Part shown: one piece after another, positions 8,093 through 21,456 of the stretch | Layout: each line of letters begins with the position of its first letter | Numbering within the stretch: position 1 is the first letter of the stretch | Origin: a virus | Length of the DNA stretch: 29,846 nt | Strand: one strand, 5' to 3' | IMG/VR virus record: IMGVR_UViG_3300035182_000180 | Coordinates: 1-29,846 of that record | Notes under the pieces: generated by a model | Databases searched by the model: none | Told to the model about the DNA's origin: nothing | Seen by the model: the letters and a program-made list of their open reading frames with translations, nothing else | Translations under genes and position numbers: made by a program

Positions 8093-8366
8093 GCAAAAGA
8101 TACAGAAGAAGATCATTGATTATCTTGAAGGTCAAGGTGCTTACGTTATTAAAGTAATCTCTGCTAGTAAAGCGGGAGTGCCTGATATACATTTCTGTTA
8201 CGAAGGCTTCTATGGTGCAATTGAAGTTAAAACGCCTGCTACTAGCAATAACGTTAGTAAACTACAAGCTTATAATTTAGATTGCATTTGTAACGCAGGT
8301 GGATACGCTATAGTAGCTTGGGAGTTAGAACAAGTTAAAGATATGCTAGTAAGGATGCTGTCATGA
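8076..8366 (+). CDS. VRR-NUC domain nuclease
   Basis: This is a small PD-(D/E)xK-fold nuclease of the VRR-NUC family. GVPDIHF (34-40) supplies the Asp (D37), and YGAIEVKTP (46-54) supplies E50 and K52. Q64 in KLQAYNL fits the conserved helix after the core. VRR-NUC proteins of phages are found alone at about 90-110 residues, and cut branched or single-strand junction DNA in the cases studied. It overlaps the deaminase by 17 bases and the helicase by four (ATGA). Nuclease plus SF2 helicase is a frequent phage pair, probably for recombination or for resolving replication intermediates. Confidence 0.9.
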   Translation: MSIGTEQKIQKKIIDYLEGQGAYVIKVISASKAGVPDIHFCYEGFYGAIEVKTPATSNNVSKLQAYNLDCICNAGGYAIVAWELEQVKDMLVRMLS

Positions 8367-9658
8367 TAACGCCTAAGCAGCATCAACTACACTACTCAAA
8401 GCTCGTATATGATCAAGTAAAGTCTAAAGGGTATGCATATCTTGCAGGTAAACCACGTAGTGGTAAAACTTATACAGCTATTTTAGCTTGTGAATGCTCT
8501 GATAAAATTAACAGAGTACTTGTGTTGACAACTAAGAAAGCTATTGAGGGCTGGCATGTGTTTATAGACGACACGTTGAAACATAAGTATGACATTATAA
8601 ACTATGAGCAAGCTGGTAGTGTTAAGGCTATTACGCATGATGGGAGTGGTAGAAAGTATAAGGTACCTAAAATAATTATACAACTTAAAGTTAATCCAGA
8701 GTTGTATGGCCTTGTTATTATTGATGAGTCACATAACACTGGGGCATTCCCAAAACCTTCTGGCCGTTATAAAGTTATTAGTAAGATATGCGCTAACTTA
8801 CCTCATATTCATCTCAGTGGCACAGCTATAGTTGAGAGTCAGGCTAGTATTTATCATCAAATGAACATTAGTAAGTTCTCACCTTTTAAGCATAAAAATT
8901 TCTATGACTTTCATAAAGAGTTTGGTGAGCCTTACTATATTAAAGCAGGTGGCAGGGATATTAACCAGTATGATAAAGTTAAAGACACTTTATTACCACT
9001 TATTAATACTTTTACTATCTACATGACTCAAGAAGACGCTGGGATATCTGAGGAGTTCCAAGCTGTTGATATTAAACATTATATAGTGCTATCTGATAAA
9101 ACTAGACAACTATATAATGATCTACAAGATGATAATATAGTTGATGTGTTTACTAATATACTTAGCGAAACTAGCGTAGAAGCTAATGAAGCATACAAGC
9201 TAGTATGTGATACTGTAATGAAACTAAGAACATCATTACACATGCTAGAGGGAGGCGCTGCTAAGATAGATGACACATATATTGACTTAGGGAATAGAGA
9301 GAAAGTTAACTATATTAAGGAGCACTTCGGTGATATTAGTACAACTGGTATTATGTGTCATTTTATTGGTGAGCGGCAGATTTTAGAAAAGGAGTTTAAG
9401 TATGCTGAAATATACTCGTCACAGTCACATGCAGAAGGTGTTGATCTTAGTCATCTCGAGAACTTTGTTGTGTATAGCGCTGGGTATAGTGGCGCTAAAT
9501 ATATACAACGACGTGACAGAACTGTCAATCTTGAAGTGAAGAAGGAAAGACTAGTACATCATTTACTTGTCAAAGGAGCTGTTAGTGAGCAGGTCTTTAA
9601 ACGAGTAACAAAGAAGGAGGATTTTAACAATGCAACATATGAACACACTAGGGTTTAA
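8363..9658 (+). CDS. SF2 (SNF2/DEAD-like) helicase or translocase
   Basis: This 431-residue protein has the full superfamily 2 core. Walker A is GKPRSGKT (29-36), motif II is DESH (121-124), motif III is LSGTA (151-155), motif V region is SHAEGVDLS (355-363), and motif VI is IQRRDRT (381-387). DESH with SGT and a Q..R.R motif VI is usual in SNF2-like proteins of phages, many of which move on duplex DNA and do not open it. No extra nuclease or zinc domain is visible. It is co-translated with the VRR-NUC gene. Role in replication, repair or recombination is inferred from context. Confidence 0.9.
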   Translation: MITPKQHQLHYSKLVYDQVKSKGYAYLAGKPRSGKTYTAILACECSDKINRVLVLTTKKAIEGWHVFIDDTLKHKYDIINYEQAGSVKAITHDGSGRKYKVPKIIIQLKVNPELYGLVIIDESHNTGAFPKPSGRYKVISKICANLPHIHLSGTAIVESQASIYHQMNISKFSPFKHKNFYDFHKEFGEPYYIKAGGRDINQYDKVKDTLLPLINTFTIYMTQEDAGISEEFQAVDIKHYIVLSDKTRQLYNDLQDDNIVDVFTNILSETSVEANEAYKLVCDTVMKLRTSLHMLEGGAAKIDDTYIDLGNREKVNYIKEHFGDISTTGIMCHFIGERQILEKEFKYAEIYSSQSHAEGVDLSHLENFVVYSAGYSGAKYIQRRDRTVNLEVKKERLVHHLLVKGAVSEQVFKRVTKKEDFNNATYEHTRV

Positions 9659-9827
9659 ACTACAGGAAATTACTGCTAATAAATTAAACATGATTAAACA
9701 GCTGAATGCAGAGATAGAGCTAGCTGTAAAAAATGGGTGGAAGAACCATGAAGCAGACTGCTTAAAAGAGCTAGCTAAAACTAAGTATGAGGCAATGAAG
9801 CCTCATACTGTTTTTATTTCTTCTTAG
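9630..9827 (+). CDS. Small helical protein of unknown function
   Basis: A 65-residue frame begins inside the end of the helicase gene, with GGAGG (9616-9620) nine bases before its ATG. The translation is a single long amphipathic helix (about 8-52) rich in Lys, Glu, Ala and Leu. I do not recognise it. Its last 15 codons contain the stem-loop and U-tract of the terminator at 9784-9815, so many transcripts may end inside the gene. It could be a real short protein with a coding terminator, or a chance frame behind a good ribosome site. Confidence 0.6.
   Translation: MQHMNTLGFKLQEITANKLNMIKQLNAEIELAVKNGWKNHEADCLKELAKTKYEAMKPHTVFISS
9784..9815 (+). terminator. Strong rho-independent terminator at the convergent junction
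   Basis: AGTATGAGGC (9784-9793) pairs perfectly with GCCTCATACT (9800-9809) around the loop AATGAA, followed by G and TTTTT (9811-9815), then more T-rich sequence. It ends the rightward arm. On the other strand the stem is followed by AGTTTTAG, a weaker U-tract, so it may also slow leftward transcription. Confidence 0.88.
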
Positions 9828-9858
9828 GTGGTTTAGTAGTTTTTGTTTTGCAACCCAT
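9814..9858 (-). CDS. Possible 14-residue Lys/Pro-rich peptide
   Basis: After the 1106-residue gene, leftward, TAATG joins its stop codon to an ATG that opens a short frame, MGCKTKTTKPPKKK. GAAGGAG lies five bases ahead of the ATG, inside the end of the large gene, which is a strong ribosome site. Its stop falls four bases before the terminator stem. The peptide is highly basic. It could be a real micro-protein, or the ribosome site could be chance from the Lys/Glu-rich end of the large protein. Confidence 0.35.
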   Translation of the reverse strand: MGCKTKTTKPPKKK

Positions 9859-12800
9859 TACTTCTCCTTCTTTTGATTTTTAGGTAGTAATGCTACGGCT
9901 GCGGGTAAAGCTAAGATTGACTTATTAATCTTCTTACCCTTAGCTTCTGCAGCGGTGATCTCTTTTAAAGCGATATGTACTTGAGTATCAGTAACTACTT
10001 TATCAACAATAGTAAAGAACTTTCCTGGCTTCATTAACACTTCAGCTTCACCACTATTACTTCTACTAGCTAAGTCATGACCAGTTCCCACTATAGTTAG
10101 CATAGTTGGCTTTTTACCACTTAGCGTTTCTCCCTTAACAAAATCAGCAGCTTTTGTTCTGTCAACTGATGTACTTAATATAGATGCATTAGATAACACG
10201 TCATTATCAGTTAACTTAGATAGTATACGCTGCTGGTCAACATCAAGCCTAGTACCTCTATATACTCCTCCACTAAAGTTTTCAGGCGCTTCAGTAACGA
10301 ATTTAATAATTTTAGAGTTACTTTGTCCGCCTTGTCTAAGTAGTCTATTTGTATCGGCATAACTAGTTCCTGTATATGCCTTTATAGCGTCTGCATACTC
10401 TGAGTAGTCTATAGATTTATCTATCTTATTCTCAACTTTGCTTGTAAATACTTTGTCTACTGTGCCATTTCTACTAGCAGGCTTTAGTGGCCCACCACTC
10501 GCGCTATACTCTTTATCAAGCTTAGCCATAGCTGATAACTCACTAGGACTGGCTTTACTAAATTCACCAGATATATTAAGCCCTTCAGTTGACTTATTCA
10601 TGATCTTAGCCCCATTTTGAATTAACTCATCATAGGCTGTATGAACTAAGTTTCCATCAACATCATTTAACATAGCTGTGAAGTCTAGTATTTTACCCCA
10701 TACTGTAGTATCAGCATTACCATCTTTAACTGGTATCTTCATAAGTGCATCTCTAACTTCCGGGTCTGACCTGCCCCACGATAAGAACTCCTTAGCGTTA
10801 TCAAGTAAGTTATTCTTACCTTCAACTGCTTTTTGTATAACTGGCATATCTTTAAGAGTAGTGTTTGCGTTCTGCTTAATAACGTCCATAAGCATATTAA
10901 CACCTTGAAGTCCTTGAGCCTCTACTGTTCCTGGGTGGGTCATAGCATAATTTACACCTGAATTAGTAGTTGCATGAAGCATCTCATGGGCAACTAATGT
11001 TGACTTGTCTGCTTCAGATAACCCTTCAGTTTTAAGTAATACTTCTATGCTATTAGTCTTCTTATCTAACGGCATAGTTACTCCAGTTACATCAGGGTCA
11101 CCTATACCCTTTGTGGCTTGACTGATACTCATAGAGTCAGAAGTATAATCTTTAACATCTACTTTTACTCCAGCTTCTTCAAACTTTTGCAGTGTTTCTT
11201 TAAGACTTTTTGTAACTTGAGGATTTAAGTCTGTAGCAACTTCTAACTTATCAACAATCTGTTGTGCTGTATTAGTGTTAATATCTTTCCAAATACTTTG
11301 TTCTACTGGTTTACCGCCATTAAACAGCGTTGACAATGGACTTCTCATGTCTTCTGGTATCTTACTATCGTTAAGAATTTTATCAACAAACTCAAAGTCT
11401 TTTTTACTAGACTCTAAGTCTTTCATGATAGTCTTAAAGATACTTTGTTGAATACGTAAGTTCTCTCCAAGATTAGAGTGTACTCCCATTCCAATTTCAC
11501 TCTTAGCAACAATATTTCTTGCTCCATTAATTATATAGCCCCAAGCGCCAAGTACACCGCCACCATTTGAACTTGACCCAGACTGTAATGCTGCGTTAGC
11601 TAATGCTCTACTATTACCAAATTTCTTATCAAACGCCTCAGCAATTCTAAGTGAGCTAACTGCTTCAGGTGATCTAAGTTTTGCTTCAGCAATCTCTCTA
11701 TGAACTGCCGTCCAGTTAACTGCATAACCTGCCTCGTTAGTGTTCTTAGCAACTATATCCATAATCTCATTGTTCTGAGCTACTCTTGAATACTCACTAA
11801 TAGCACTATCTAATGCTGCTTTTTCTTCTGGCGTTGATACGCTTTCAATAAACTTATCTAGTGAGTCTTTGATACTATTTAGTTTCTTAAGCTCTCCGCC
11901 ATTAGTTGTTTTTCTAATAACAGCGTTTAGTTGCGGGCGAATTTCCACAGCATCTCTAGCTGACATTGTAGGTATACCTGATGAGTCATCAACCATAGCC
12001 TTAAGTGATCTTGCTACCTGTCCAGCTTTACTAGGAACTATCCCATGAATAGTATATAGATTATTAATATCTTTTACTAGGCCTGAGGCATCATGAAGTT
12101 CTGTTTTATTGTCATACATAGCAGTAGCATCAGCATATTTAGCCTTTACTCGTCCCATGTCATGTTCACCAACACTATCTTTAAACTGCTGTATTTCCTG
12201 ACCTAGTTTAGCTCTTAAGTATCCAGCTGCTCTACCATCTTTTTCTGTAGCAACATTTACTAATTTTGACTCATCAGTAGCTCTTGCTATAGCATATGCT
12301 TGGTCTTTAAGTGGAACATTGGCAACTAAGTCTTTAACTTGTTCTTCTGTAATCTCAGGATGACGGGCAATAAGGTATGTAGCTTCTTTACTAAGAGCAT
12401 CTTTTGTATTAACTGCAGTATTAAAGTACCCACCTCTGGCTGCAACACTAGCAGAGTCTTGCCCAAACGCAGTTCTAACATCGCTAGCTACTTGTACTTT
12501 CGATGCTTTGCCCAGAGCACCTATGGTTGATAGCTCAGATAACGCTGGGTTAAAGTATGTTAATGGCGCTACAGCATCTCCTATTGCTGTAACGTCTTTT
12601 TGTCCTTCTTGAGTCCTTGGACTATACGTCATAGCACTAGCAGGTGCTGATGCATAGTCTTCAAACTCTTTGTCAGTCATTTGTGGCTGACCAGTTATAC
12701 CATTTTTAATTTGCTCTGTAATAGCAGCGCCTGTACCTATTATAGTGCCCAGTACGCCACCAGTAGCCGCTGTACCCATAGTTAATGCAGCTTCACCAGC

Positions 12801-13178
12801 ACCTATAGCCTTATCTAAGAAACTACTTGGCATTACTACTTGTGGAGCTGGTGTTTCCCATGTGTTAGTTTCGTTATTAAACTGCTGCCCATCAGTGCCG
12901 TTAGTAGATTTAATAGTACTAATATGCTGTCTAATTTCATCATCTGTATACCCAGCTTTACGCGCTCCCTCAACGTCAAAGTTCTTCTCTTTGCCTGCAG
13001 AGACTAAGCTAAGAGAGTCTAAGTGTTGTTTTACTTCATCTCTACTATAGCCAGCCCTTAGTGCGGCGGTAACGTCGAAGTTCTCTTTCTTACCTTGCTC
13101 CTCAAGTGACTGTACGTCACCGGGAGTTTGCTTGTCTACCTGAACTGGTGATCTACTGTATCCAATATCTCCTGACAT
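9858..13178 (-). CDS. Probable ejected virion protein with metallopeptidase-like and ADP-ribosyltransferase domains
   Basis: This 1106-residue protein is the last large gene of the virion cluster. Residues 33-53 and 66-86 are two copies of an NFDV..A.(R/K)AGY..DE(V/I).QH(L/I) unit, a repeat often seen in ejected phage proteins. Residues about 122-155 are Gly/Ala-rich and hydrophobic and could enter a membrane. The middle is helical. H731-E-M-L-H735 is an HExxH zinc motif, with E797 in NAKEFLSW as a likely third ligand. The C-terminal 140 residues fit an R-S-ExE ADP-ribosyltransferase: VYRGT (R974), LSTS (S1002-S1004) and GEAE (E1044, E1046). In T4, Alt is such an enzyme, carried in the head and injected. 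The tail ends Lys-rich. AAGGA seven bases ahead supports the start. Location in the virion is inferred. Confidence 0.85.
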   Translation of the reverse strand: MSGDIGYSRSPVQVDKQTPGDVQSLEEQGKKENFDVTAALRAGYSRDEVKQHLDSLSLVSAGKEKNFDVEGARKAGYTDDEIRQHISTIKSTNGTDGQQFNNETNTWETPAPQVVMPSSFLDKAIGAGEAALTMGTAATGGVLGTIIGTGAAITEQIKNGITGQPQMTDKEFEDYASAPASAMTYSPRTQEGQKDVTAIGDAVAPLTYFNPALSELSTIGALGKASKVQVASDVRTAFGQDSASVAARGGYFNTAVNTKDALSKEATYLIARHPEITEEQVKDLVANVPLKDQAYAIARATDESKLVNVATEKDGRAAGYLRAKLGQEIQQFKDSVGEHDMGRVKAKYADATAMYDNKTELHDASGLVKDINNLYTIHGIVPSKAGQVARSLKAMVDDSSGIPTMSARDAVEIRPQLNAVIRKTTNGGELKKLNSIKDSLDKFIESVSTPEEKAALDSAISEYSRVAQNNEIMDIVAKNTNEAGYAVNWTAVHREIAEAKLRSPEAVSSLRIAEAFDKKFGNSRALANAALQSGSSSNGGGVLGAWGYIINGARNIVAKSEIGMGVHSNLGENLRIQQSIFKTIMKDLESSKKDFEFVDKILNDSKIPEDMRSPLSTLFNGGKPVEQSIWKDINTNTAQQIVDKLEVATDLNPQVTKSLKETLQKFEEAGVKVDVKDYTSDSMSISQATKGIGDPDVTGVTMPLDKKTNSIEVLLKTEGLSEADKSTLVAHEMLHATTNSGVNYAMTHPGTVEAQGLQGVNMLMDVIKQNANTTLKDMPVIQKAVEGKNNLLDNAKEFLSWGRSDPEVRDALMKIPVKDGNADTTVWGKILDFTAMLNDVDGNLVHTAYDELIQNGAKIMNKSTEGLNISGEFSKASPSELSAMAKLDKEYSASGGPLKPASRNGTVDKVFTSKVENKIDKSIDYSEYADAIKAYTGTSYADTNRLLRQGGQSNSKIIKFVTEAPENFSGGVYRGTRLDVDQQRILSKLTDNDVLSNASILSTSVDRTKAADFVKGETLSGKKPTMLTIVGTGHDLASRSNSGEAEVLMKPGKFFTIVDKVVTDTQVHIALKEITAAEAKGKKINKSILALPAAVALLPKNQKKEK

Positions 13179-15017
13179 TTACAGTCCTTCGTTAGTGTTT
13201 TGTGGCAGTTTTAGTTGACTACTCATTGGCCCAGGTTGACCTGACTGACCTTGTAATGCACCAGTCTGCATCGCTTGTGCAGCCGGGTGACCTTGACTAA
13301 GCATAGCTGCTGTTTCTTCAAAGATAGCAGCAATATCTGGACTATATCTAGCCTTAACAGATTTAATAGACATACTAACTGTTTTGAAGTAACCAGCCGG
13401 ATTAACCTGACTAAGCATTTGGCCAGCTGGACCTTGTAATACAGTTTCCATCATTAACTGGTTTTTCTCGTCCTCATCATTATATGAAGCAGCACTAATA
13501 GATATATCTACGTTAGTAAAAGAGATATCAGTTTCCTTAGTAGGAACAGGTGACTGAAGTATATTACCATGCTCATCTTTCATCTCTTTACCACTTGCTG
13601 GGTCAATAGAAATTTCCATAACTGGTACCATTACTGGTTGTTGCTGTGCATCAAATTGTCCAGTCCATCTAGTCATTGGCTTATTAATCTCAATCCATCG
13701 TTGCCCAGTAGTTGTATCAGCAATACGAATAGCTTGATTAGCAGTATAGTATTGTTTAATAAGATTTACTGTATCCCAACCAATTGACTCATAAAACTGC
13801 TCAATACGACCAGTAACATATCTTAGTGACATAATAGTAGCATTTTGCTGTAATTTAACTTTACGCCCACTATCAGACGCATATGCCATACCGAGGAAAC
13901 TATCATTAATTCCTAAAATACGTTGTATACGATCAAACGCTTTATCAATAATAGTGTATTGATCTAATACTTCACGGGTCAAGTTCTCAATACGAATGCC
14001 GTTAAGACTCTTGACTGGAATTACAGCATTTACTCTATTGAATGCTGTAGTAAAGTCTGATACGTTATCAACTGAGTCAACCTCAATGAACGCCTTCTGA
14101 GTATTAACCATTAGTTGAATTTTAATAAGCGCTTGGTTAATAGCTTTTTGTGTTTCAACTACTTCTCTGAATATACCATAGTGTTCAGTTTTGTTACTAG
14201 TATGTAACTTATGAACTCTATAAGTAAACTTAACTTCTTTGAAAGTAATCTCAGAGCGCTTAAGCTCTACACTATTGCTCCAAAAGATATTCCATGACTT
14301 ACCATCATCATCAACAATGACAGTTTCAACTATAAGATAGTTATCCATAACTTTATATTTGCCATTAAATCTTGCGCCATAATTATATTCAAAGTCAGCT
14401 TCATTAACTTGTAATTCATTATAGTAAGCAACTAGTTTATCTAACGCTTCTTTGCCAAACTCAGCAATAATATGATCGTCACTTACCCACTTAAACCGAT
14501 GTAACCATCTAGCATCAGAGTAATCTTCTTTACTACTCATTGGGTCTAGCACAATCTCAAGTGAAGGAGTATACTCAGTAATCACACGTCTAATTGGTCT
14601 ACCAAACTGATCTTTCTTCTTAGTATCAACTACATCAATATGAGCGCATAGAATACCTGAAATAAGGCCATCTAGTTTAATCTTATCACCCTCAGCATTA
14701 AACTTATTGTCCTTAGCAATATATGATACTAAATCACCAAGAAGTGCTGCTGTTGGTATGTCATCTTCTTGAACTGGGTCAACATTAACTGTATTAACTA
14801 ATGTTGAGTAGTATCCAAGTAGCATTCTAGCGAACAACTTAACTACGTTAAAAGTCTCTTTAGGTTGCCCACGAGTTTCAAGAGTGTTTAGTTGACTATC
14901 AGTATAATGTCTATTATGAAATAGGTCCCATACTTCCTCAGCCTCAATACGACTTTCTTCATATGCATTATAGCCAACACTAAAGGTATTTTTAAGAGTC
15001 TCAATGTCTGTTTTCAT
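13179..15017 (-). CDS. Portal protein (P22-type)
   Basis: The dodecameric portal forms the vertex for DNA packaging, exit and tail attachment. At 612 residues it has the N-terminal pattern of P22-type portals: AEEVWDLFHNRHYT, then RGQPKETFNVVKLFARML and GYYSTLVNTV, followed by LDPMSSKEDYSDARWLHRFKW, shown here in pieces. The Pro/Gln-rich C-terminus (about 580-612) is probably the disordered barrel end. AAAGG lies eight bases before the ATG. The 1106-residue protein starts one base after its stop codon. Its place at the far end of the cluster, behind the fibres and lysis genes, is unlike most phages, in which the portal stands next to terminase and capsid. Confidence 0.93.
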   Translation of the reverse strand: MKTDIETLKNTFSVGYNAYEESRIEAEEVWDLFHNRHYTDSQLNTLETRGQPKETFNVVKLFARMLLGYYSTLVNTVNVDPVQEDDIPTAALLGDLVSYIAKDNKFNAEGDKIKLDGLISGILCAHIDVVDTKKKDQFGRPIRRVITEYTPSLEIVLDPMSSKEDYSDARWLHRFKWVSDDHIIAEFGKEALDKLVAYYNELQVNEADFEYNYGARFNGKYKVMDNYLIVETVIVDDDGKSWNIFWSNSVELKRSEITFKEVKFTYRVHKLHTSNKTEHYGIFREVVETQKAINQALIKIQLMVNTQKAFIEVDSVDNVSDFTTAFNRVNAVIPVKSLNGIRIENLTREVLDQYTIIDKAFDRIQRILGINDSFLGMAYASDSGRKVKLQQNATIMSLRYVTGRIEQFYESIGWDTVNLIKQYYTANQAIRIADTTTGQRWIEINKPMTRWTGQFDAQQQPVMVPVMEISIDPASGKEMKDEHGNILQSPVPTKETDISFTNVDISISAASYNDEDEKNQLMMETVLQGPAGQMLSQVNPAGYFKTVSMSIKSVKARYSPDIAAIFEETAAMLSQGHPAAQAMQTGALQGQSGQPGPMSSQLKLPQNTNEGL

Positions 15018-15026
15018 CTATTACCT

Positions 15027-16733
15027 TTATTTAAGTCTAAAACTATCTAGTGGCGGTCTACCAGTGCTACCTGGCGCTACAGCGCCATTACCTAAGTTAA
15101 CTGAATGGCCTGAAGACTGTCCAGCCGGTCTTGAACTATCAGGTAATACTAGTTGTGGTGGTGGAATTAAATCCTTAGGCGTATAATGTCCAGGTGTAGC
15201 GCTACCACTTGTTGACGAGTTACGTTCACCTTTTGAAGGCTGCACATTGCCATCTAGCATGCCAGATATACTATTTAGCTGTTTATCAGCGGCTGAGTAT
15301 TTAAGGTTATATAATTCTGGATTTAGCGCTTTAATAGCTTGGAAGTTACTTCTTATCTCATCGAATTTTACTTTAACCCCGGCCATATTAGTCTTAGTAT
15401 TCTTATTTAGAGTACCCATTGACTGCTCAAAATTATTACGCTCAGCATCAGATACCGTTAACCCAGACTGTATTTTAAGCATAGCCGAAGCAGTACTTAG
15501 GTATACTTTTCTAAACTCAGAATTAGCTAAATCCTTATCGTCAACGCTTCTCCATGACTCAGGTAAGTATTCTTTTACTGACTCAATCATATTTCTAACT
15601 GCACTAGTTTGTACATGCTCACTACTAGCTAGTTTAGAAAGTTTTACAGCATTAGTCATTACTGCACCAATACCGCCTTCAATATCCTTAGCGACCAGTT
15701 TAGTAACTTCCTTACCAGATGGGGTATCTTCTAAGTTTCTTGTAATACGACTAACTTCTTCTTGTGCTTGAGGAGGTAATGAGTTTACATCAACAGTCTT
15801 AAGGTCTACGTTATACTTCTTCTCAAAATCTGAGTTGTCAGACTTCATAGCTATGTTAGTCTTATACCCAGTACCAGCAATCTCTGTACGATGCTGATCT
15901 AGCTCAGCTCTCTCAGCCTGAGTTAGTGTACCATTGCTTTCTTTAACTACTAAGTCACCAAAGTGTTTAGCTGTTTGTATGCTAAAAGGCTCAGTACCCT
16001 TAGACTCTTTTTTCGTAGCTAGATATTGGGTATAAGCATTTTCGACAGTCTTAGAGTCAGCGTCTGGGTATAGGTTACGGTAATCAGCCGTAAACTTGCC
16101 GAGGTCACCAACTATAGGTTTATCATCTTTCTGAGGTGTCATAGCAGTCTTTGCGTCTCTAAAACTACTATTAATATTATCCCATTGGCTAGACGCTAAG
16201 TTTGTACGCATATTAGTCTGCTTCATAACGTCTTCAGCGCTTCTCACTGACCAATTACCAGTGTCATCTTGTACTTTAAAGAACATTTTACTAATTTTAG
16301 CCTTAACTGCAGGGTCAGTATACTGCTCGGGAGTAAACCCAATAGAAGCTAGCATGCTAGAGTCTTTATCAAAGTTAATATTGTCAACCCTAGAAACTCC
16401 CTGTGACTTCCATAAAGCTGCGGCATCTGGATTGCTATCTAAGTACTTTTGTGCTGTAGTGAAGTCACCAGTCTCAATAGAATTACTAAACTGTAACGCG
16501 CTATCCTTAGCAGTAATTAAATTCTGCTGAGCTTTTAGCTGTTGCTGAACTAATGCTAATTGCTTTTGCATTACATCCTGTTGTTGCCCACCAATGCCAG
16601 AAGTAGCAGGTGTGCCATCAGCATTATATCCCATCTTAGATAGTTGTGCATTTTGAACAGCAGCCTGCTGTCGTAATTCTTCTCTTCTATTTTGATCAGT
16701 TGCTACCGCATTATATCCTTCAGCAAGTCCCAT
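15027..16733 (-). CDS. Internal virion (ejection) protein candidate
   Basis: I do not recognise a catalytic domain in this 568-residue protein. The N-terminal 75 residues are Gln/Ala-rich with a likely coiled coil (QKQLALVQQQLKAQQN region). The middle is helical and charged. The last 70 residues are Ser/Gly/Pro-rich and disordered. This make-up, and its position between an S74-type internal protein and the portal, fits P22 gp16/gp20-type ejection proteins or T7-like core proteins. I chose the ATG at 16733 because GGAG stands six bases ahead of it. An earlier TTG at 16745 overlaps that ribosome site and is unlikely. The start overlaps the end of the upstream gene by 14 bases. Confidence 0.72.
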   Translation of the reverse strand: MGLAEGYNAVATDQNRREELRQQAAVQNAQLSKMGYNADGTPATSGIGGQQQDVMQKQLALVQQQLKAQQNLITAKDSALQFSNSIETGDFTTAQKYLDSNPDAAALWKSQGVSRVDNINFDKDSSMLASIGFTPEQYTDPAVKAKISKMFFKVQDDTGNWSVRSAEDVMKQTNMRTNLASSQWDNINSSFRDAKTAMTPQKDDKPIVGDLGKFTADYRNLYPDADSKTVENAYTQYLATKKESKGTEPFSIQTAKHFGDLVVKESNGTLTQAERAELDQHRTEIAGTGYKTNIAMKSDNSDFEKKYNVDLKTVDVNSLPPQAQEEVSRITRNLEDTPSGKEVTKLVAKDIEGGIGAVMTNAVKLSKLASSEHVQTSAVRNMIESVKEYLPESWRSVDDKDLANSEFRKVYLSTASAMLKIQSGLTVSDAERNNFEQSMGTLNKNTKTNMAGVKVKFDEIRSNFQAIKALNPELYNLKYSAADKQLNSISGMLDGNVQPSKGERNSSTSGSATPGHYTPKDLIPPPQLVLPDSSRPAGQSSGHSVNLGNGAVAPGSTGRPPLDSFRLK

Positions 16734-17556
16734 TATGTTCTCCAATATAATTTAGTACTACTGAGTAGTCAACTGCTAGATATCCATTTTGAACATACAC
16801 ACAGTCAGGAATAACTTTAGCGACTTCTTGGGCTATAACTCCAAAGCTTTTGCCAACATAACCTAAGTTATTAGCTATAGAATTCCAAGTCCAAGTGTAA
16901 AAAGTTACACCATTTAGAGTATGAGAAACAACTAAGTTATCTTTAAGCGCTATATCTGACGCCATTCCCATACCAATTAGAGTTCCCATAGTATTTGAGT
17001 TACTTTGTGATAGTGACGTAGAGTTATTAAGTGAACTATTAGCGCTATTAGTAGCGTTAGATGCTCCATTATTAGATACATTAGCAATAGTGCCAAGCAT
17101 TTGCGCACCTTGTCCAAGCCCTAGTCCTAAGAAACTCATCTTTTGTTGATTCACTTTCTCTGGGGCCGTAATACGTGCTTCAGTAGTAGCGTTAGCTAGT
17201 TGTTGAGTAAGTGATGTGGCTGCAGCAGCTGCAATGCCAGAGTTAGAAATACCACGCTGAGCTAATTGTTCCTGTAACTGCGTGTTAGCTTTTGAGTACT
17301 CTTGTTGTACCTGAGTTACGCCGCGAGCTTCATAGTCAGAAGCTGAAAGACTCTTATAGTAATCTCCTAAGTTAGACTGTATATCACCATAGATATCTTT
17401 CCAGTCACTATATTGTTGCTTTTGGAAGTCAAGTTGTTCAGTAGTTAACCCATTAGCAAATGCTTGCTGATTAGCAGCGTTATTAGCTGCCCTCTTTTGA
17501 CCTGCTACATCAGTTAATCCTACAGCATCAGTTACATCACTAATAATACTACCCAT
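16720..17556 (-). CDS. Internal virion protein with C-terminal S74 chaperone domain
   Basis: The N-terminal 140 residues are Gln/Ala-rich and helical (AANNAANQQAF, then YSDWKDIYGDIQSNLGDYY), a pattern found in podoviral DNA-transfer-type proteins. A Gly-rich stretch (142-156) and a Ser/Asn-rich linker (160-190) follow. The C-terminus (198-270) is an intramolecular chaperone of the endosialidase type (peptidase S74): ASDIALKDN with the cleavage-site Ser200-Asp201, then FGVIAQEVAKVIPDCV and LAVDYSVV. S74 domains help a trimer fold and then cut themselves off before Ser; here that would free about 78 residues. S74 is more usual on tail fibres. AAAGGG is the ribosome site; the start shares one base with the stop of the GNAT-like gene (TAATG). 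Confidence 0.82.
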   Translation of the reverse strand: MGSIISDVTDAVGLTDVAGQKRAANNAANQQAFANGLTTEQLDFQKQQYSDWKDIYGDIQSNLGDYYKSLSASDYEARGVTQVQQEYSKANTQLQEQLAQRGISNSGIAAAAATSLTQQLANATTEARITAPEKVNQQKMSFLGLGLGQGAQMLGTIANVSNNGASNATNSANSSLNNSTSLSQSNSNTMGTLIGMGMASDIALKDNLVVSHTLNGVTFYTWTWNSIANNLGYVGKSFGVIAQEVAKVIPDCVYVQNGYLAVDYSVVLNYIGEHNGTC

Positions 17557-17957
17557 TAGATACCCTTTCTATATATAATCTTATTCTGGCAAGCGCCAAA
17601 CTTTTCAAGTAATTTTTGGCTACTAGGAAGTATACTTTCAGCTTCCCAATGTGTATAACTAGATGGTATAGCCCACTCACTAGCAACAAGTAGTCTTAAT
17701 GCATAGTATCTATACTCTTTTACTATATATATTGCTGAGAAATAGAATACATCACGCTTACCATATCCTAGTGTAAAGCCAACAAGCACATTATCTTTGT
17801 ATAGGCCTAGAACTATAGAGTCTTTGAAAGTTAACTCTTGTAGTAGTGATGCAAGGCATGAGTATCTATTAGTATACCCAAGCTCTACACACATTAAATA
17901 ATGTAACTCTTGAAGAATGCCAAGGTCACTATCGTCAATCTTTTTTATCTCAATCAT
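17556..17957 (-). CDS. GNAT-like acetyltransferase fold protein
   Basis: This 133-residue protein looks like a small GNAT family N-acetyltransferase. It opens with a beta strand and helix (IEIKKIDDSDLGILQEL), has the central strand VLVGFTLGYG (57-66), then FYFSAIYIVKEYRYYALRLL, where the acetyl-CoA loop should be, and ends with ESILPSSQKLLEKFGA, the common SN.....EK.GF-type C-terminal helix. The usual Q/R-x-x-G-x-G/A loop is degenerate (KEYRYYA), so activity is doubtful. Such proteins are found among head genes of other podoviruses with unknown role. The ribosome site AAGGA is unusually far (11 bases) from the ATG, and the leader is very AT-rich. The 45 bases upstream (17958-18002) hold nothing else I can name. 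Confidence 0.6.
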   Translation of the reverse strand: MIEIKKIDDSDLGILQELHYLMCVELGYTNRYSCLASLLQELTFKDSIVLGLYKDNVLVGFTLGYGKRDVFYFSAIYIVKEYRYYALRLLVASEWAIPSSYTHWEAESILPSSQKLLEKFGACQNKIIYRKGI

Positions 17958-18002: not shown

Positions 18003-19943
18003 TTATTTATGAAACACTGTAGCAGTCATATTTCTATTTCTAATAGCCTGATAAGGAGAAGCTGACCTGGAAGAAGTCGCAAACTGAGCATAGTATGTAT
18101 AAGTGCCAGCTGATAACGTCTCATTAAAAAATAATGTGTCTGCAGTCCACACGTTAGATGCGTATGTAGAATTAGCCCATAATGAACTGGCAGAGTTAAT
18201 TGTAGAGTCACCATATACTAATGTAGAATCTCTAAGAATACGTAAGTTAATTCCGACAGTATTATTACCTTTATTATCATTAAATGACACAGTAACGTCT
18301 ATGCTTAATGTTTGATCAATAGTTAATGTTACTTGAGCAAAGGTAGTCCAAGTATTATTAGCACTTAGAGTTATTGTAGCTGGGTCGCTATATCTCCATG
18401 CTGAAGTAATAACTGGTATCCTATCTATAAATAGTGTACCAGTATTAATTACATCAGCATTAATTGTGCCAGCAGTAATAGTTCCTATGTTAGCACAAAT
18501 AGCTGATAGCGTTGATACAGATATCTTATCAGCAGTAATGGCATTAGCTGCTACTTTAGCGGCTGTAACAGCATTAGCGGCTAGCTCATTGGCAGTAATA
18601 GTTAATGCAGCTATATTATTGGCAGTAATAGTATTAGCCGCTAGTTTATTACCTGTAATAGTATTAGCGGCTATAGCGGCAGCTAATATGCTTAGAGCTG
18701 TGATCTTACCACCATCTATTGTAGTAGTATTAGCGTTAATAAGAGCAGCTAGATCAGCGTTAGATGGTAACTTAGCGTCTGCTGCACTTTGTGCCGCATC
18801 GGCCAATGCTTTAGCCTTAGTATAGATAGCATTGAGAAGTGTTTGTCGAGCAGCATACACATCAGTAAACTTAGTTCTAAACGTATCACCAACGATAGTG
18901 GTATCTCCTGTAGTTACATTCCATGCGACTGGAGCGGTGAGCGTTCCTAGATAGGTTGTTAGTGCTGATACTGCATTATCATACGTTGTTTTCTCAGTAG
19001 TTATTCCATATGCTGTCGCCTGGGCGTCAATTCCAGTTTGTTCAGCATCGATAACCGCTTTATCAGAGACTACTGCTGACTTCTCTACAGGGGAGAGAAT
19101 ATTGTCTGACGCGATATTAGTTAGCTGACTAAGTGCTGCTGTGGCATTTGTACTGGCAGTATTGGCAGTAGTTTGTGCTGTAGCCGCGTTGGTAATGGCC
19201 GTGTTCGCTACTGTATTATCAGTCCATCCTGCACTATTTATAATTCTACTAGTATCTAAATTACCTGTTGTATTAGTGAATGATACTTTACCATTAAAAA
19301 TAATATCATATGAAGCGCCATTCCACTGTATTAAGAATGCTGGTATAATTTTACTAGTATTAGTGTCATACATGGTGCCATAAGGTAAATTATGAGCTTG
19401 CACATAGGCTAACTCAGATGGATTAGTAATATCAGAAATAGCCTTGGCTACTGAAAAGTTATCAGCACTAATGGCAAATGTACTACCAGCTGTTCCAGGA
19501 GTGGTGGTGTCAGTATCTACGCCAGAAACTGTAAATCCAGATATTAACTCTCCAGACTTTACAGTTAATCCATACCATGCTGCAGCGGTAGTTAAGTCTT
19601 TAAACGCACCAAACTGCTGTGCTATAACTGCTAAATTTTCTTCGTTAGCAAGTACCTGAGTAGTAAGTGTATTTGTGATATAGGTTTTAGCTTCTTCTGT
19701 AATAGCATTAGTTTTTACAGCAGCGTCTAATAGATTACTTGTATATGCACCTAATATATTAAGAACAGCCGTTGGTACTGTAGGATTATTAACTCCATAA
19801 GTAATTGGGTAAGTAACTAGAGGATTAGTATTTAACTTAGCTACTAAGTCAGTTAAAAATCGCTTTAAGGTAGTAGAGTCATCGACATTAGTAGGTACTG
19901 ATATGAGCTTCTCTTTTATCATTGTAAACATACTACCTACCAT
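18003..19943 (-). CDS. Tail fibre/tip protein with DUF1983-like region and decapeptide repeats
   Basis: This is probably a trimeric tail fibre or tip for host contact. Residues about 150-220 (STFAISADNFSV then PAFLIQWNG and YDIIFNGKVSF) resemble the DUF1983 domain at the C-terminus of lambda J-like proteins. Residues 280-390 hold a helical module starting DNILSPVEKSA, seen in other J-like proteins. Residues 425-474 are five tandem decapeptides of the type AANTITxxxI. The C-terminal 130 residues are all beta and Ser/Thr/Asn-rich and end with TATVFHK, as in receptor-binding tips. The ATG at 19943 has GAAGGAAG ahead and overlaps the upstream gene by 11 bases. Exact position in the tail is unknown. 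Confidence 0.78.
   Translation of the reverse strand: MVGSMFTMIKEKLISVPTNVDDSTTLKRFLTDLVAKLNTNPLVTYPITYGVNNPTVPTAVLNILGAYTSNLLDAAVKTNAITEEAKTYITNTLTTQVLANEENLAVIAQQFGAFKDLTTAAAWYGLTVKSGELISGFTVSGVDTDTTTPGTAGSTFAISADNFSVAKAISDITNPSELAYVQAHNLPYGTMYDTNTSKIIPAFLIQWNGASYDIIFNGKVSFTNTTGNLDTSRIINSAGWTDNTVANTAITNAATAQTTANTASTNATAALSQLTNIASDNILSPVEKSAVVSDKAVIDAEQTGIDAQATAYGITTEKTTYDNAVSALTTYLGTLTAPVAWNVTTGDTTIVGDTFRTKFTDVYAARQTLLNAIYTKAKALADAAQSAADAKLPSNADLAALINANTTTIDGGKITALSILAAAIAANTITGNKLAANTITANNIAALTITANELAANAVTAAKVAANAITADKISVSTLSAICANIGTITAGTINADVINTGTLFIDRIPVITSAWRYSDPATITLSANNTWTTFAQVTLTIDQTLSIDVTVSFNDNKGNNTVGINLRILRDSTLVYGDSTINSASSLWANSTYASNVWTADTLFFNETLSAGTYTYYAQFATSSRSASPYQAIRNRNMTATVFHK
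18522..18671 (-). repeat. Five tandem 30-base repeats coding decapeptides
   Basis: Codons 425-474 of the fibre gene are five units of 30 bases, each coding A-A-x-(T/A)-(I/V)-T-x-x-x-(I/L/V). Units differ at several bases, so they are old and kept by selection on the protein. A repeat of this length in a trimeric fibre suggests a regular beta or coiled shaft. Confidence 0.85.
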
Positions 19944-21456
19944 TTTGTCTTCCTTCAGCTTTATATTCTACCTCTATAACTTCACCAGTACCATAAAACT
20001 CCAGTTGCACACTGTATCCGTGCCTTAATTCCTGTGGGGGCTTAACTTCATTTAGTCCGTCTACTAGTTGTTTAGTAATAGCTAGAGTATCATCTATATA
20101 TAACTTAAGTTGTATGGCTCCAACTACGTATACATAAAATACCTTATAGTTCTTTAACATGGTCACTGACCCATCAGAGATTTTACCACTTTTATATGTT
20201 AAAGGTAGTAATGAGTTTCCATTAAATAGACTATATAGTTGCCCATTAATATCAGTATAAAATAACTTATCTAGTATAGAACTATACCATGCACCATTGG
20301 CGATTATACTATACTCTTTAAAAATAGGAGAGCTATATCTAAAATCAGCCACTAGTATGCCAGTAGTATGAAATAGAAAGTATTGACTATCCCATATTTC
20401 AGCAGTAATAGGCGTATATGATAGTTTACCCAGTGCTTGCAGCGATAGTACTTGTACCTGGCTACCACTTGAAGTACATAGGCCATCAGCGCTCATCCAA
20501 GCTAGATTATTATCAGTATAGTTAATAGTCTTATGGTTAATACATCCCTGTGAACCATGCAATAGTGATTTAGATAATCCTAGAGGTGACGTACCAGTAA
20601 TGATATAAGTTTTATCACTAGTGAATACTAACAACCCATTTTGAGTACTACCAAGTCCAATAATAGTTGAGTCAAAGTCTAAATAAAAGAATGGACTCCA
20701 GTTATTAACAAGCGCAATACTAGTATAGTATAACTTATCATCCTTAGCACCGAAAAACATAGCAGAATACTCTACTAGATGGGATAGCCCACTAGGAGCT
20801 TGCATAACAGTATAAGTAGTCATAATACTGCCATTAATAGCAGTGTCAGCGATTGTATCAGTATATGACCCAGTAGTATTCGGTAAAGTAACTACCAATG
20901 ACATTTCTGCAATAGCTCCGCCGAGTCTATATAGTCTAATATTAGTAACTTGAGCATCTGTAGAAGCAATTAGTCCACTAATAGTGATATCTTGAGTAGT
21001 ATAACTAAGATTAACTGAGTAGGCAGATGGAGATGACTCAGCGCCATCTGCGCTATTATAGTACGTATACGCGTACTGCAATACCTTAGTATGTGATGGG
21101 TCTAATGTTCCATTATACACTGTAGTAAGAGTATTTGTAGGACCCTCTATACCCAGATTATAAAAGTATACGCCGTCTAAGGTTTTTTGTGGCACTCCAA
21201 CTGCATCTGAGAAGTATAAATGATCTTGGAATAACACAAAGTCAGTATTATAAGGTTTAGCAATCCACTGTCCTTTAAAATAGTAGAAACTAGAGTTACT
21301 ACCAAAATTATGGGGCTCAGTTAGACTACTAGGTATAGGTCGTAGTGTCTCAGCTGAGTTATCAATATTCTCATACACTACACTAGCACCTAATGGTACT
21401 AGAAATGGTGATACCCTTGAGTATTTTCCAAGGTTGAATTTTGATAACTGAGCCAT
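19933..21456 (-). CDS. Tail nozzle/hub-like beta-propeller protein candidate
   Basis: This 507-residue protein is almost all beta strand with repeated short strands ending in aromatic residues (WIAKPYN, LVFTSDKTYIITG, NNLAWMSADGL, DSQYFLFHT), about one per 40-50 residues. This fits a beta-propeller, as in the nozzle or hub of short-tailed phages (P22 gp10, T7 gp12). The N-terminus AQLSKFNLGKYSRVSPFLVP is similar in style to podoviral tail proteins annotated as stabilisation or nozzle protein. AAAAGGA precedes the ATG. It lies between the 3TM holin-like gene and the J-like fibre. The function is from fold pattern and position only. Confidence 0.6.
   Translation of the reverse strand: MAQLSKFNLGKYSRVSPFLVPLGASVVYENIDNSAETLRPIPSSLTEPHNFGSNSSFYYFKGQWIAKPYNTDFVLFQDHLYFSDAVGVPQKTLDGVYFYNLGIEGPTNTLTTVYNGTLDPSHTKVLQYAYTYYNSADGAESSPSAYSVNLSYTTQDITISGLIASTDAQVTNIRLYRLGGAIAEMSLVVTLPNTTGSYTDTIADTAINGSIMTTYTVMQAPSGLSHLVEYSAMFFGAKDDKLYYTSIALVNNWSPFFYLDFDSTIIGLGSTQNGLLVFTSDKTYIITGTSPLGLSKSLLHGSQGCINHKTINYTDNNLAWMSADGLCTSSGSQVQVLSLQALGKLSYTPITAEIWDSQYFLFHTTGILVADFRYSSPIFKEYSIIANGAWYSSILDKLFYTDINGQLYSLFNGNSLLPLTYKSGKISDGSVTMLKNYKVFYVYVVGAIQLKLYIDDTLAITKQLVDGLNEVKPPQELRHGYSVQLEFYGTGEVIEVEYKAEGRQNGR

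Follow-up and report, generated by a model that had tools for sequence, protein, structure and literature searches.

Head-packaged ADP-ribosyltransferases (ARTs), MuF-fused ARTs and zincin-containing polyvalent proteins are already known from phages (PMC9503650, PMC5576092, PMC5512222). Phage ARTs, of which T4 Alt is a head-packaged example, occur in about 3% of podo- and siphoviruses and are rare in podoviruses; packaging of phage ARTs in heads has been described (PMC9503650). In Pseudomonas phage ZQG1 (Bradleyvirinae), an R-S-ExE ART ends a large minor head protein that is encoded right after the portal. The genes of MuF toxins also lie right after the portal, and these proteins, found in temperate phages, end in toxin-type enzymes including ARTs and metallopeptidases (PMC5576092). 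In polyvalent proteins, which are encoded in virion gene clusters, a zincin-like metallopeptidase and an ART are found in one phage polypeptide, and Iyer et al. proposed that the zincins cut these proteins into working units after delivery (PMC5512222). The ARTs described for the polyvalent class belong to the H-Y-D (Tox-ART-HYD2) clade, which is a trait of those ARTs and not a requirement of the class, and polyvalent proteins with an R-S-ExE ART were reported absent in 2017 (PMC5512222). An earlier note on the DNA analysed here had presented its ART as a new effector strategy, which overstates the case, since ARTs fused to portal-adjacent head proteins and zincin polyvalent proteins have both been published (PMC9503650, PMC5512222, PMC5576092).

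The analysed DNA (the window) is an entire virus record of 29,846 bases. No end repeats were seen, and the record is probably a genome fragment. Its P22-type portal gene (13179..15017, minus strand; PF16510, 4.3e-81) encodes a protein with 53-57% identity by tblastn to the portals of Pseudoalteromonas phage PH1, Vibrio phage VPMS1, Edwardsiella phage KF-1 and Dickeya phage Amaethon, and therefore we assign the virus to the KF-1-like podoviruses. Directly beside the portal gene begins an open reading frame of 1106 amino acids with an ATG start (9858..13178, minus strand). Upstream of it and transcribed in the same direction are genes for a predicted DNA ejection protein (16720..17556, minus strand; phrog_21132, 1.2e-33) and a predicted internal virion protein (19933..21456, minus strand; phrog_511, 5.4e-73). 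Within this tail and ejection cluster, a 133-aa ORF (17556-17957, minus strand) has a weak match to a phage acetyltransferase (phrog_1249, 1.9e-4). On the other side, the 1106-aa ORF is separated from a convergent helicase-like gene (8363..9658, plus strand) only by a 14-codon ORF, which bears out the earlier placement of the gene directly after the portal and last in the virion cluster. The small ORF, MGCKTKTTKPPKKK (9814-9858, minus strand), has an ATG that overlaps the stop of the ART gene (TAATG); in KF-1, VPMS1 and Amaethon its place is taken by an ORF of 61-66 aa. Between the two convergent gene sets, at 9784-9815, an inverted repeat (AGTATGAGGC..GCCTCATACT) with a T-run behind it is likely a terminator.

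As read from its sequence, the 1106-aa protein consists of an N-terminal trunk (residues 1-616, 11331..13178), a zincin-like region (residues 617-881, 10536..11330; core 728-867 at 10578-10997) and a C-terminal ART domain (core 913-1070, 9969..10442), in this order and all on the minus strand. Full-length tblastn in phages and pattern scans found no close relatives of the whole protein or of its ART, and an NCBIfam search returned nothing. The earlier account of the protein was right about the ART, but it missed both the zincin-like domain and the modular swapping of cargo described below.

Residues ~913-1070 form a well-supported R-S-ExE ART domain of the Vis/Tre1 type. The motif residues are exactly where the earlier note had put them, with R974 in VYRGT (972-976), S1002/T1003/S1004 in LSTS (1001-1004) and E1044/E1046 in GEAE (1043-1046). 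R974 is the Arg of the first core strand; this residue, the S-T-S motif and E1044-A-E1046 with the VLMKPG that follows were all aligned with Vis and phage ARTs. The range given earlier, residues 965-1065, was too short, as the domain spans about 9969-10442 and takes in the motif of the N-terminal ART helix, AIKAYTGTSYADTNRLLRQG (from residue 931). The isolated domain matched the Vis ART (PDB 4xzj) at 7e-4 by phmmer, with the R, STS and ExE all aligned. It also matched the C-terminal ~150 positions of PHROG 595 at 8e-6; that family is labelled head maturation protease, and some of the related phage proteins that tblastn recovered are ‘minor head proteins’. Aligned to the ARTs of phage minor head proteins by hhalign, the window ART gave an E value of 2e-9. 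A ten-sequence family profile searched against the PDB found Tre1 (6dre) at 4e-25, Vis at 5e-24 and then other R-S-E ARTs, scores that are partly owed to the relatives in the profile.

The signature could in principle have arisen by chance, and the low Pfam scores (PF03496 at 0.0016 and PF01129 at 0.0036, both below the curated cut-offs) and the low-confidence AlphaFold2 model (mean pLDDT 44) would fit such a reading. The best Foldseek match of this model was Vis at 8e-5 (VIA Z 4.1, rmsd 3.7 over 76 residues), a weak resemblance. However, the window ART scored 56.9 bits with a profile of nine relatives lacking the window, mildly circular in that the alignment was originally made with the window included, whereas the best of 20,000 same-residue shuffles reached 19.5 bits. 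Together with the matches to several ART families and the presence of ARTs at the same slot in two related loci (L034 and L127), this largely refutes a chance motif, which we find hardly credible, and the signature noticed earlier is real.

The zincin-like region contains HEMLH (731-735, at 10974-10988), with H731, E732 and H735 as predicted zinc site residues, and NAKEFLSWG (794-802, at 10773-10799), in which E797 is the predicted third ligand. The region matched PDB 9sfn_G, a structurally solved internal virion protein, at 7.2e-5 (phmmer), and the phiKMV-like internal virion proteins at about 1e-3 by tblastn and at 8e-10 by hhalign to the set. With a window-free profile the region scored 40.4 bits, and none of 20,000 shuffles exceeded 12.7. 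LUZ19 gp37 has 1337 aa, the same length as 9sfn_G, and we infer that 9sfn comes from LUZ19 or a phage close to it. The gp37 proteins of LUZ19 and phiKMV share with the window protein a homologous HExxH...KE..WG region within an internal virion protein, but they belong to the Autographiviridae, and LUZ19 gp37 carries an endolysin-domain annotation. The low-confidence AlphaFold model of the region (mean pLDDT 52) gave nothing significant in a fold search, the zincin PPEP-3 appearing only at an E value of 2.2. A zincin-profile match in VPMS1 was disregarded (0.0026, over 46 residues only). The same motif occurs in the middle of a 2109-aa phage protein (L101:151-6480; HELLHAATV...NVKELVAWG), which is probably a large polyvalent protein, and an HExxH domain is also present in the N4 vRNAP (PMC12633501).

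An early region (residues 268-528) of the PhiM1 ejection protein TEP has been read as endolysin/exotransglycosidase-like (PMC11440229). Because of this reading and the endolysin annotation of LUZ19 gp37, we treat a protease role of the zincin-like region as putative; the HExxH region may instead serve the ejection channel, structurally or by acting on peptidoglycan, with the ART acting while still attached. We regard this as possible but somewhat doubtful, since the window, L175, LUZ19 and L101 all retain HExxH (H731-H735) and the KE..WG motif with E797, as a zinc site would predict. It overlaps with the explanation that we prefer, a delivered protein whose ART may be released, and would alter the release step only.

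The trunk was compared with the proteins found at the same position in relatives. Two IMG/VR portal scans and the annotated phages together gave 94 distinct portals, 68 of them with a complete following ORF. All six annotated relatives encode a protein of 961-1299 aa (PHROG 21759) after the portal, and most IMG/VR loci have a long ORF there, the slot proteins of relatives ranging from 400 to 1500 aa. A single-linkage family holds 70 of the 73 post-portal proteins of the first survey set, including that of the window. PHROG 21759 members (KF-1 gp37, VPMS1 MS_022, PH1 gp53) share with the window protein the slot, a similar size, an N-terminal repeat motif and this family, but have no HExxH and no C-terminal ART. 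In the window, the repeat ‘FDxxxARxAGYxxDEIxxHL’ occurs twice in residues 33-88, and a weak glycine-rich hydrophobic stretch was seen by hydropathy at residues 124-157. The body of the trunk is common to the post-portal proteins of relatives; its profile had no match among proteins of known structure, and its alignment held no stretch conserved enough for scanning. Since the zincin-like region is homologous to the solved internal virion protein 9sfn_G and the synteny holds across relatives, we infer with good reason that the 1106-aa protein is part of the virion or ejected from it.

The C-terminal cargo at this slot, compared at the sequence level, is modular and varies between related phages. 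A 753-aa protein (L037) matches residues 33-616 of the window protein (blastp 3.6e-63) and then has a different end, with neither zincin nor ART. A 1207-aa protein (L175:9827-13450) aligns with residues 260-860 at 1e-34, a stretch reaching through the zincin; right after the zincin it has a different C-terminus with no Pfam match. This C-terminus contains ‘VLNEFQSDWAQ’, which we take to be reminiscent of large polyvalent-protein-associated domains. The post-portal protein of a further locus (L087:9873-12839) ends in a LysM domain (5e-12) and an endolysin-like stretch. The C-termini of four others (L013, L016, L029, L039) share the end ‘MYKQS..GKGVYFVDK.KNP...GF.GIK...A.LFP’, which resembles a degenerate ART domain of the H-Y-D type; Pfam and profile searches of these C-termini gave no support for such a domain.

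R-S-ExE ARTs were found at the slot in only three of the surveyed phages (the window, L034 and L127), and the ART is therefore an accessory at this position; a profile scan for ART in 50 related records found only that of L034. The L034 ART is a separate 248-aa ORF (L034:7046-7792) that overlaps the stop of the trunk gene and matches Vis at 3.5e-7. L127 has two free-standing ART-like ORFs in tandem (L127:12136-13503), with the post-portal gene on one side and the convergent helicase gene on the other; the motif of the first is weaker (SRIG, ATS, ETE), and the second matches Vis at 2.3e-5. The slot ends at a similar convergent helicase gene in L034, L127, L175 and the window. Fusion to the trunk was observed only in the window. 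Because the L034 and L127 ARTs are separate ORFs lacking a trunk, packaging by fusion is not general, and the window ART might be real but act only once expressed late in infection, with no virion delivery. We consider this unlikely, since in the window protein the ART is joined in frame to the trunk and to a zincin-like region resembling part of an internal virion protein, and its gene lies beside the portal within the virion cluster.

With two unrelated predicted enzymatic domains, zincin-like and ART, in one polypeptide encoded directly after the portal and among virion genes, the window protein has the domain combination and the phage-type neighbourhood of polyvalent proteins, but its ART is R-S-ExE and not H-Y-D. 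ZQG1 is of another family (Mesyanzhinovviridae), and its similarity to the window, ~30% identity, is confined to the ART; the window trunk and zincin region had no match in ZQG1-type minor head proteins. T4 Alt resembles the window ART, predicted to be phage-carried, in being head-packaged, but the match was weak (PHROG 802, 0.031) and partial, restricted to residues 38-102 of the isolated window domain, and similarity to the Alt family did not extend beyond this fragment; the window ART also shares its polypeptide with a trunk and a zincin-like domain. The earlier suggestion of an Alt-like RNA polymerase target found no support in these comparisons, in which Vis, Tre1 and the ARTs of phage ‘minor head proteins’ were closest, and RNA polymerase could be named as the target only by analogy to T4 Alt.

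The nearest solved relatives, Vis and the interbacterial effector Tre1, would also suit a polymorphic toxin that inhibits competing bacteria or phages in the manner of MuF toxins instead of serving early host takeover, and ART-bearing MuF toxins sit just after the portal (PMC5576092). This use is very unlikely in our view. Pfam detected no MuF domain (PF04233/PF06152) in the window protein up to E=1, and a MuF fusion was dropped from consideration. No ADP-ribosylglycohydrolase gene of the immunity type, nor a Macro gene, was found in the window, which as a genome is probably incomplete; an early takeover enzyme thus fits better than a toxin-immunity pair. Furthermore, the KF-1 relatives are treated as lytic (PMC8472413), whereas MuF toxins occur in temperate phages (PMC5576092).

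Taken together, the product of the gene is probably a polyvalent-like protein of the ejection type, with several domains, from a KF-1-like podovirus; delivery would fall to the trunk, possible release to the zincin, and modification of a host molecule to the ART. The N-terminal trunk, common to relatives, would position the protein close to the portal inside the head and take it into the cell along with the DNA. The zincin-like domain, as the literature on polyvalent proteins suggests, may then cut the polypeptide and free its C-terminal part. The ART, whose chemistry is predicted from motif and homology, would modify a host molecule early in infection using NAD+.

A broader proposal, which we advance tentatively and at somewhat less than even confidence, is that the post-portal protein of KF-1-like podoviruses is an interchangeable delivery vehicle, with a conserved ejection trunk, in some cases a zincin that trims the C-terminus inside the host, and varied payloads (ART, another C-terminal domain, LysM/lysozyme) or separate ARTs. 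If so, one of these vehicles would be a polyvalent protein whose ART is R-S-ExE, the kind reported absent in 2017 (PMC5512222). The idea of a delivered, self-processed effector protein rests mostly on genomics so far. One group of ~42 kb phages with isolated members (KF-1, PH1, VPMS1, Amaethon) has trunks with and without the zincin and with different C-termini, and packaging, ejection, cleavage and host modification are therefore separately testable in it; these natural variants of the post-portal protein can show which part does what.
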